DNA of 64,000 bases, taken from NCBI GenBank assembly GCA_015152555.1, contig SUTS01000005.1:62001-126000 (forward strand), read 5' to 3'. This stretch comes from Cyanobacteria bacterium SIG26. GTDB taxonomy: Bacteria > Cyanobacteriota > Vampirovibrionia > Gastranaerophilales > Gastranaerophilaceae. Of this stretch, positions 2,385-40,468 are shown one piece after another (the first letter of the stretch is position 1; every line of letters starts with the position of its first letter). The notes under the pieces are model-generated. The model did no database searches and was not told where the DNA came from. It saw nothing but the letters and a program-made list of their open reading frames with translations. Made by a program: the position numbers and the translations under genes.

Positions 2385-2505
2385 TTAAATTGACAAGGTG
2401 CTGTGGATTATTTACTATCAAACTAAGAGGAAATGGAGTGAAGATCTCCAACTGTAGCCGCAGCCGTAAAAGTCGGAACACTCAAAGAAAAGACTAAATT
2501 CCACG
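2385..2505 (+). promoter_or_regulatory. Cobalamin (AdoCbl-type) riboswitch-like aptamer
   Basis: The stretch carries the ordered conserved blocks of a short cobalamin aptamer: AAGGTGCT near 2393, TAAGAGGAAA near 2426, a TGGAG/CTCCA stem around GTGAAGAT, then AACTGTAGCCGCAGCCGTAA (compare the family core AACTGnCCCGCAACGGTAA), then AAGTCGGAACACTC in place of the usual closing block. A second hairpin (AATTCCA/TGGAATT) follows at about 2497-2521. The long peripheral arm of classical B12 riboswitches is absent, as in the shorter AdoCbl subtype. An expression-platform hairpin and a start codon follow within 75 bases. Recognition is by motif memory, not by covariance search. Confidence 0.72.
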
Positions 2506-29728: not shown

Positions 29729-29902
29729 TTGCCCTCTGTTATTTGCATAATATAATAAATAACTTATTAATTCAATAATATATAAAGTGTAATTATTAAT
29801 AGGAGATAATACAATTAATTGTAACAGTTTTGTAAACATCTATCAAAAAATATTTTTCTTTGACTTAAAATTATTGTGTAGCAGTTATTAAAATGGTGCG
29901 AA

Positions 29903-38760: not shown

Positions 38761-38769
38761 ATAAAAAAT

Positions 38770-39110
38770 AAAGTAGCCCGTAAGCCGTGTTCTGTTTTAG
38801 ATAATCATCTGTCTGGTATTAGGATTACTCCTAATCTCTAGCGATTTTTCCGAAGTTGGCGAACAACCTTTATAACCTTCGAGTCAATCTTGCATCCAAC
38901 CGGGGTTTACCTAGCTGATACCTCTCGATATCACTGGTGAAGCTCTTAACTCACCGTTGCACCATCGCCTGTGACATATAGTCCATCGGCAGTCTACATT
39001 TCTGTGGCACTATCCACCGACTCACATCGTCCGGAGTTTCTCCGGCGGCCTGTTCTGAGATGCACGGACTTTCCTCACCTGAAATTCAGGCGCGATTATC
39101 CGACTACTTT
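38770..39110 (-). ncRNA. rnpB: RNase P RNA (bacterial type A)
   Basis: About 341 bases on the minus strand. The ends pair as helix P1 (AAAGTAG with CTACTTT). The conserved cores are present: GAGGAAAGTCCGTGC (CR I), CACAGAAA (CR II/III), and ACAGAACACGGCTTACG (CR V) near the 3' end. RNase P RNA is the catalytic subunit that removes 5' leaders from tRNA precursors. It begins seven bases after the stop of the pre-pilin gene, so the promoter must lie inside that gene or the RNA is processed from a common transcript. Confidence 0.95.
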
Positions 39111-39116
39111 ATTATT

Positions 39117-39815
39117 CTATTCAGTTATATCTTTGTTAACCGATACCGCATTTATAGCCCAAGTATCAGCCTTATCAATTTGGACACCACCGTCTGTGGT
39201 TACTTGAATAGTAAACCTATCACGGCTACTTGATGTCGACTCTACTTTACACTCTAGTCCATCATCGTATTTACAAGGCATAGTACTTGCATAAGTTGAA
39301 TCACCTTTATTTGGTCCGGCAGTTCCATTAACATCGACAACGATTGCAAGCTTACTCAGTTCTCCTGTCATATTAAAACCGCTATCATCCATATCTATCC
39401 ACCACATTATGCCATCACCTGTGCTATGGACCGCGTAAAAGTCAAAACCGTCGTCTACGTTGATAGAAAGCTTATCATAAAACAAAGTTGCAAATTTTTC
39501 TGTTACATCAAGATCACATGTTATAGCACCGGTATTTTCAGCACCGCCCCATTTGACACAATTTGCGTATCCACACTCATCATCAAATCCGATTCTCGGA
39601 TCAGAAGCCGCAGTTTTATCAGGATAACAAGCTTCATCATTTATCAAATCACTAACAACAGCTTGTACCGCATAAAAAGCACGTTTAGCCATCAAGGTAT
39701 TTTGATTTGGGAGCGAATTAAAAATAATTGGCATTAAAATTGCACACAATACAGCGATAACACCGAGAGCAACTAACAATTCAGTAAGAGTAAAAGCTTT
39801 ATAAAATCTTTTCAT
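39117..39815 (-). CDS. Type IV pre-pilin-like protein
   Basis: 232 residues. After a six-residue leader the class III signal KAFTLTELLVALGVIAVLCA is cut before Phe; residue +5 is the conserved Glu, and the hydrophobic helix follows. The globular part has several cysteines and Asp/Asn-rich loops (DLINDEACYPDKTAASDPRI; DDGFDFYAVHSTGDGIMWW). The -1 residue is Ala rather than the usual Gly. Probably a minor pseudopilin-type exported protein. GAGGAT precedes the ATG. Confidence 0.85.
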   Translation of the reverse strand: MKRFYKAFTLTELLVALGVIAVLCAILMPIIFNSLPNQNTLMAKRAFYAVQAVVSDLINDEACYPDKTAASDPRIGFDDECGYANCVKWGGAENTGAITCDLDVTEKFATLFYDKLSINVDDGFDFYAVHSTGDGIMWWIDMDDSGFNMTGELSKLAIVVDVNGTAGPNKGDSTYASTMPCKYDDGLECKVESTSSSRDRFTIQVTTDGGVQIDKADTWAINAVSVNKDITE

Positions 39816-39861
39816 ATTAATATCCTCAACTCAAAATATATTCTTATTATATCATATACAG

Positions 39862-39890
39862 TTGTATTTTTCAACACGATATGTTATACT
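39862..39890 (+). promoter_or_regulatory. Sigma70-like promoter of the structured-leader gene
   Basis: TTGTAT (39862-39867), a 17-base spacer and TATACT (39885-39890). The start predicted near 39897 gives a leader of about 180 bases. Confidence 0.6.
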
Positions 39891-39896
39891 GGTAGT

Positions 39897-40078
39897 AGTT
39901 AGAAAACCAAAGAGGGCTTTAAATTTGTAATGGATTGTAAATTTTTATTTACAAAATAGCAAAATAATCCATTCAGACGAGTTAATAACACATCACACAT
40001 TTTATAATGTGTAAAACACGAAAACACGAATATTTAGGATTTATGCATCCTTAAATAGAAGTAAAAGGGTTAGTGACT
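39897..40078 (+). promoter_or_regulatory. Long structured 5' leader, possibly a regulatory RNA
   Basis: An outer pair AATGGATT (39929-39936) and AATCCATT (39966-39973) encloses a hairpin GTAAAT/ATTTAC (39937-39942, 39947-39952). A CACATT/AATGTG hairpin follows near 39996-40012, and AGGAT/ATCCT (near 40037-40052) ends just before the ribosome site AAAAGGG. No known riboswitch was recognised. Confidence 0.45.
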
Positions 40079-40468
40079 ATGGTCGATAACAGATCAGCAG
40101 GTTACTTTGGTATAGGCGGAGCTTTTAATTTTAAAAGCGGAGATATATCAGGTACAGCTGCAAAACTATCAGATGATAAAATGGGCCAAGGCGGCGAATA
40201 TTTTTCTCAACGAGGTGGTGAGGAAGAAATGCCTATGCCTAACAATCAATATATGGATCAAAGTGCGGTTTTGCGCGCAACACTTAATTCTCTTGCAATG
40301 ATGAATGTTGCAAACGTTTTGAACGCAAAAAAACGTAAAGCTGTAATGGATGAAGAAGACAAAATTACACAAGACTTGAAAGAAGTCTTAAAACTAAAAA
40401 AAGAAAAACTACTAGCCCAAAATAATTATCACGATGACGAAGATTTATTTGATGACGAAGAAGAATAA
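40079..40468 (+). CDS. Small acidic-tailed protein of unknown function
   Basis: 129 residues. The N-terminus has AGYFGIGGAFNFKSGDIS, a glycine/aromatic motif; residues about 60-85 form a helix rich in Ala/Met/Asn (RATLNSLAMMNVANVLNA); the C-terminus is charged helical ending in an Asp/Glu run. No signal peptide. The ATG at 40079 is chosen (AAAAGGG ten bases before); a GTG two codons upstream is an alternative. It is transcribed from a promoter with a long structured leader. Confidence 0.65.
   Translation: MVDNRSAGYFGIGGAFNFKSGDISGTAAKLSDDKMGQGGEYFSQRGGEEEMPMPNNQYMDQSAVLRATLNSLAMMNVANVLNAKKRKAVMDEEDKITQDLKEVLKLKKEKLLAQNNYHDDEDLFDDEEE

Follow-up and report, generated by a model that had tools for sequence, protein, structure and literature searches.

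The 182 nucleotides upstream of a small gene in a gut bacterium that is related to cyanobacteria but not photosynthetic appear to be mainly a compact promoter region, and we consider it fairly likely that the conserved site P1 within it is a core promoter, belonging to a class that serves many genes in this lineage. The region spans positions 39897-40078 of the window (i.e., the whole stretch of 64,000 nucleotides analysed), and all evidence presented here is sequence-based. By this evidence the promoter class to which P1 belongs is apparently undescribed.

The gene begins at ATG 40079, where ATGGT(A/C/T)GA is found in 81/81 family loci; an alternative start at GTG 40073 was merely the choice of the ORF lister, and the family loci all use the ATG. 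As the first-pass annotation had it, the product is small (129 aa) and ends in an acidic tail. Searches of the protein against Pfam, NCBIfam, PHROGs and PADLOC gave nothing above cut-off (the best Pfam hit, DUF3802, was below it), a PDB search with the 129-aa protein found no related solved structure, and the predicted structure (pLDDT 63.8, pTM 0.25) consists of a low-confidence long helix after a poorly predicted N-terminus. The gene is present in one copy per genome in 66 out of 98 related genomes, and the named records that contain it include many Gastranaerophilales/Melainabacteria. Scanning genome contigs for the gene yielded 222 stretches; we retained the best 80, which together with the window's own locus make up 81 loci, and as the upstream DNA of one of them (L097) is cut off, 80 were usable. 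All counts out of 80 below thus refer to a set drawn from the best 80 of 222.

All 80 loci with enough upstream DNA carry a conserved, near-gapless element corresponding to window positions 39936-40008. It is made up of a TGTAAA/TTTACA dyad, TAGCAAAATAAT..ATTYAG..GAGTTAAWA and then a -10-like TATAAT at fixed spacing, and 21 of its columns are invariant among 50 non-redundant copies. The alignment was anchored on the TAGCAAA heptamer, which lies 72-162 nt upstream of the ATG in 80/80 loci (best 80 of 222), no locus having been excluded for want of it. Counting the T of TAGCAAA as 0, the aligned columns read TGTAAA-n6-TTWACA from -21 to -4, TAGCAAAATAATnYATTYAGnnGAnTTAAWA from 0 to +30, and TATAAT from +46 to +51 (T77 A78 T64 A70 A58 T78 of the 80 loci). 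Within P1, TAGCAAA, G22, A23, T25, T26 and A30 are invariant in all 80. The features discussed here are listed in Table 1.

Table 1. Features upstream of and including the 129-aa protein gene, in window coordinates; promoters and start sites are predictions.
Feature	Position	Strand	Remarks
Promoter of the divergent pilin-like gene, TTGAAA-17-TATAAT	39846-39874	-	11/12 match
P0, outer promoter, extended -10 TG-T-TATACT	39882-39890	+	Equivalent in 46/80 relatives; expected start near 39897
Dyad TGTAAA-n6-TTTACA	39936-39953	+	High conservation across 80 loci
P1, copy of the genome-wide motif	39957-39987	+	TAGCAAA, -35-like, 39957-39963; GAGTTAATA, -10-like, 39979-39987; predicted start ~39992
Inverted repeat ACACATT-TTAT-AATGTGT around the P2 -10	39995-40012	+	RNA role without support
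P2, -10-like TATAAT at +46	40003-40008	+	Fixed distance, 80 loci; predicted start 40014-40016, A of AAACACG
Leader hairpin before the ribosome site	40031-40056	+	Individual folds in relatives; leader mean z -1.95
Ribosome-binding site AAAGGG	40064-40069	+	Sequence
129-aa protein gene	40079-40468	+	Low-confidence N-terminus, conserved FNFKSGD, long helix 61-123, acidic tail

P1 is one copy of a motif with the consensus TRGCAAAAAnATTTTTnAGRGGTTTTAT, which is found upstream of genes in the source genome and three others. Because a strict pattern allowing up to 3 mismatches found the window copy alone, a looser model was used; another pattern search gave 46 matches vs. 36 in a reversed control, and its matches therefore served as leads, judged by context. 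A sequence-only model of the element scored the element itself at 72.8 bits in its own genome, followed by sites of 27.8, 20.2, 20.1 and 18.2 before other genes. Further sites came from stretches of this and other genomes picked regardless of content. A matrix built from 18 sites was then tested, with training sites excluded from the counts. Sites scoring at least 20 were located 28-80 nt before a same-strand start in 5/6 cases in the second sample of the source genome, 8/8 in genome G051 and 3/5 in genome G057, compared to a background of 2.2-2.5%; the reversed-sequence control contained 2, 0 and 0 such high-scoring sites, respectively. As counter-evidence, 4 of the 12 sites scoring at least 16 in that second sample had no called start behind them (start calls come from a simple script, meaning that individual ones may be wrong). 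Around 17 sites precede genes in 45% of the source genome, which extrapolates very roughly to 40.

The motif was also present in a sample of a second family (f6; G071), and was not seen in 140 kb of family f7 (G064) or in 140 kb of a further family from the class (G082). Upstream of window-gene homologues from other genera or families, it scored at least 12 in 9 out of 20 further loci (including L127-L130), and at four f6 loci the scores were 10.6-14.1. For another motif gene, with homologues at 27-41% identity, the motif was kept in 5/6 distinct loci, and a T-run ended 0-2 nt before TAGC in its own copy and in 4/5 distinct relative copies. A second motif gene left a mixed footprint, with a site at L281, L284 and L285 and none at threshold at L282, L283, L286-L291 and L293. 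A weaker copy (TATCAAAAAATATTTTTCTTTGACTTAAAATT, score 13.4) lies elsewhere in the window (29840-29902, plus strand), 62 nt upstream of the gene for a 252-aa protein that starts MKIDSIRNYPIYS.

Where genes begin relative to the motif suggests where transcription would start. Among 40 sites, the start codon was found 34-38 nt behind the motif in six cases, in none at 39-47, and otherwise mostly at 48-75, with outliers at 87, 93 and 122 and a single one at 30 (L198, probably a false match). A ribosome site was found in 1/6 genes at start distances of 34-38 vs. 22/30 at 45-80. This gap and this split are what one would expect from a transcription start near +35, with a transcript either leaderless or long enough to have room for a ribosome site; it is from start-codon distances and ribosome sites that we infer the start for the whole P1 class. 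Members of the class have a TAGCAAA box, around 17 bases and a GTTTTAT or GAGTTAAWA box, and would start transcription some 35 bases downstream of the T in TAGCAAA. The separation of TAGCAA and TTTTAT/TTTAAT by around 17 bases fits a sigma-type promoter, and for promoters of alternative-sigma classes a start 5-9 nt after the second box is expected. We observed a pair of boxes whose spacing is nearly fixed and which recurs on the coding strand ahead of many genes; given this motif, spacing and position, P1 probably serves as a core promoter for an alternative sigma factor. What counts against this is that the second box of the window family is GAGTTAAWA, while the commoner form elsewhere is GTTTTAT.

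An alternative, which we consider rather unlikely, is that the motif is a transcription-factor site governing a regulon, and that the real promoters are ordinary sigma-70 ones nearby, such as P2 and P0. In the window family, an ordinary TATAAT indeed stands at a fixed distance and the dyad adjoins the motif; the A/T tracts of the motif are nearly palindromic, and TGTAA/TTACA was enriched 5' of other motif copies (14/30 vs. 139/607 AT-rich controls). However, no TATAAT-like box occurs at a common offset among the 40 sites (a box at fixed offset behind every copy was rejected, as the offsets scatter), and starts 34-38 nt behind the motif, together with abutting terminators, leave scant room for another promoter. 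The dyad is so placed that it would help P1, and is probably a regulator site or an upstream promoter element; in some relatives it would fall on the expected start of P0.

The -10 boxes of P2 and P0 resemble those of sigma-70/SigA promoters (TTGACA/TATAAT), and P2 follows the SigA -10 profile in having positions 1, 2 and 6 strongest (T77, A78 and T78 of 80), with a poor -35 region. By contrast, the column counts of P1 do not fit TTGACA and TATAAT: TAGCAA matches TTGACA at 3/6 positions, and the second box mostly has T instead of A at position 2. The genome encodes seven genes with sigma-70 region 2, namely RpoD, two further RpoD-like, one FliA-like, one SigB/SigF-like and two ECF-like (names given by best-scoring models, several below cut-off). 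To our knowledge, the closest described match to the P1 motif is the TAGGC/GGTAA promoter of SigF. Cyanobacterial SigF-type (group 3) promoters, e.g., that of Synechocystis pilA1, have TAGGC around -32 and GGTAA around -12, and Synechocystis sigF is autoregulated (PMC2758279). TAGCA and GGTTTTA here resemble these boxes in sequence and spacing, and the source genome does encode a SigB/SigF-like factor. On the other hand, the boxes are similar without being identical, the spacer with its A/T tracts is conserved here, and the genes behind the motif are not those of pili; furthermore, the SigF-like gene here has no upstream motif copy.

The first-pass annotation had read the region as a long, multi-hairpin leader transcribed from a good promoter and likely to be regulatory. 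The hairpins it drew (the AATGGATT/AATCCATT nest, ACACATT/AATGTGT and one before the ribosome site) are all in the sequence, and the 182 nt fold better than their shuffles (-32.3 kcal/mol vs. -22.65 +/- 3.28; z -2.94; 1/200 shuffles as good). Its remark that no known RNA family matches also agrees with our Rfam search, which returned no match over the leader. A single conserved RNA structure is nevertheless contradicted by the comparison of 50 non-redundant relatives, for which RNAalifold returned zero consensus pairs. Specifically, compensating changes were absent from the large nest, and the AATGGATT helix did no better than shuffled or slid versions: the outer helix pairs in 59.1% of cells vs. 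58.0% when shuffled, and the inner dyad in 76.7% vs. 76.1%. We thus rejected the nested hairpin as a conserved RNA. The hairpin at 39995-40012 beats shuffles, but its covariation (0.238) is equalled on sliding by -2 (0.237) or +2 (0.244) columns, because its arms alternate CACA/GTGT, and as an RNA element it is ambiguous and was set aside. Over 39932-40012, neither compensatory changes nor a match to a described RNA family was found. The region resembles known structured 5' leaders (riboswitch, thermosensor and attenuator classes) in having a hairpin near the ribosome site, and differs from them in that the element has no conserved structure or Rfam match. Counting against a pure promoter-DNA reading, shuffled versions of the element fold somewhat less well than the element itself (mean z -1.36). 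Given the fixed spacing, the -10-like profile, the terminators that abut it in some relatives and the occurrence of the motif before unrelated genes, we interpret the conserved stretch as promoter DNA; most of the supposed leader would then be promoter, and the last hairpin alone appears to behave as an RNA structure.

As for the promoter at its head, scanning the plus strand gave none, and the best match lay on the opposite strand, before a divergent pilin-like gene (39117-39815; N-methylation motif present); what stands of the claim is the extended -10 site P0. An equivalent (TGnTAnnnT, at least 5/6; shuffle rate 7%) was found in 41 of the 54 loci with the divergent pilin-like neighbour and 5 of the 26 without it, i.e., in 46 of the 80 drawn from the best 80 of 222, and a long transcript through the element may therefore also be made, with P0 as an optional extra promoter. 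The other 34 of these 80 loci retain the element, which is thus kept even where the promoter that would place it in a leader is missing. Of the 26 loci without the pilin neighbour, 7 had a called terminator-like hairpin, and we counted three of these: at L080, L108 and L109 it stops 24-35 nt short of TAGC and abuts the dyad. Those at L072, L075, L078 and L082 were rejected as weak, 84-104 nt away and apparently part of an RNase P RNA gene. In the window, a bacterial class A RNase P RNA (38765-39111, minus strand) adjoins the pilin-like gene, and an AdoCbl-II cobalamin riboswitch lies at 2411-2491 (plus strand). The regulatory-leader reading is thus upheld as far as P0 and the hairpin before the ribosome site go, while the conserved part has the marks of promoter DNA. 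That a long P0 transcript carries a structured cis-regulatory RNA strikes us as very improbable, since the fold of the window stretch, the frequency of P0 and, by eye, CGGATT/AATCCG in place of TGGATT/AATCCA in several relatives are outweighed by the missing consensus structure, helices that equal controls, the blank Rfam search and the retention of the element where P0 is lacking.

The promoter reading leaves a short mRNA leader of around 64-87 nt from P1 or P2, with one hairpin before the ribosome site. P2, an ordinary-looking -10 just behind the expected P1 start, would itself start near 40015. AAACACG follows its -10 in most relatives, at variable distance (window 40013-40027), and may be a conserved initial transcribed sequence. 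In the 59 of 80 loci where the stretch between the P2 start (+57) and the ATG is 45 bases or longer, its mean z was -1.95, compared to -1.36 for the element, -0.56 for upstream sequence and -0.28 for the coding start. When relatives were folded individually, the stem persisted while its sequences varied; MAFFT and RNAalifold on 24 leader sequences recovered no pair. Leaders shorter than 30 bases, found in 15/80 loci (best 80 of 222), have no room for the hairpin. We take it to be real yet inessential and, because relatives with very short leaders do without it, probably a generic stabiliser or a modest control of translation.

The products of motif genes may share a further feature. Many of them start with M(K/N/Q)(I/V), soon followed by (V/I)(N/S)F(K/T)(G/A), and in the window protein FNFKSGD is almost invariant. 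The tag pattern occurred in 11/383 genes within residues 1-45 vs. 4/369 within residues 46-90. A motif score of at least 13 was reached by 3/11 tagged genes vs. 4/371 other genes in the first source-genome sample (p 0.0006), which fed the matrix; 2/7 vs. 11/357 in the second (p 0.022, but p 0.21 at score 14), which holds two training sites, both among untagged genes; and 3/6 vs. 9/212 in G051 (p 0.0023). In G057, the strict pattern was found in 0/6 motif genes (p 1), and a looser one, set after the earlier samples had been seen, in 2/6 vs. 31/349 (p 0.10). The association between tag and motif is therefore suggestive, not settled. Among the homologues at 27-41% identity mentioned above, all 5 motif-bearing loci have an N-terminal (V/I)(N/S)FTG. 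A (V/I/L)(N/S/T)F(K/T/S/Q)(G/A)-like tag was also seen behind the motif at L140, L141, L147, L165, L133, L137, L175, L183, L184 and L186, and where homologues were compared, tagged proteins had diverged fast except in the tag.

We tentatively propose, as a possibility well short of probable, that families f1 and f6 of this order possess an undescribed promoter class with a dedicated sigma factor, serving very roughly 40 genes per genome with fast-evolving, tagged products, that the tag may sort or export these products, and that the window gene is the most conserved member. Within the collection of papers searched, neither Gastranaerophilales regulons nor Melainabacteria N-terminal motifs or alternative sigma factors gave any paper, and broader searches gave nothing on the subject. 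With the promoter reading, a single odd leader becomes a testable promoter class in a gut lineage for which regulatory data hardly exist, and the tagged, fast-evolving proteins behind the motif become candidate secreted or localised products of Gastranaerophilales.
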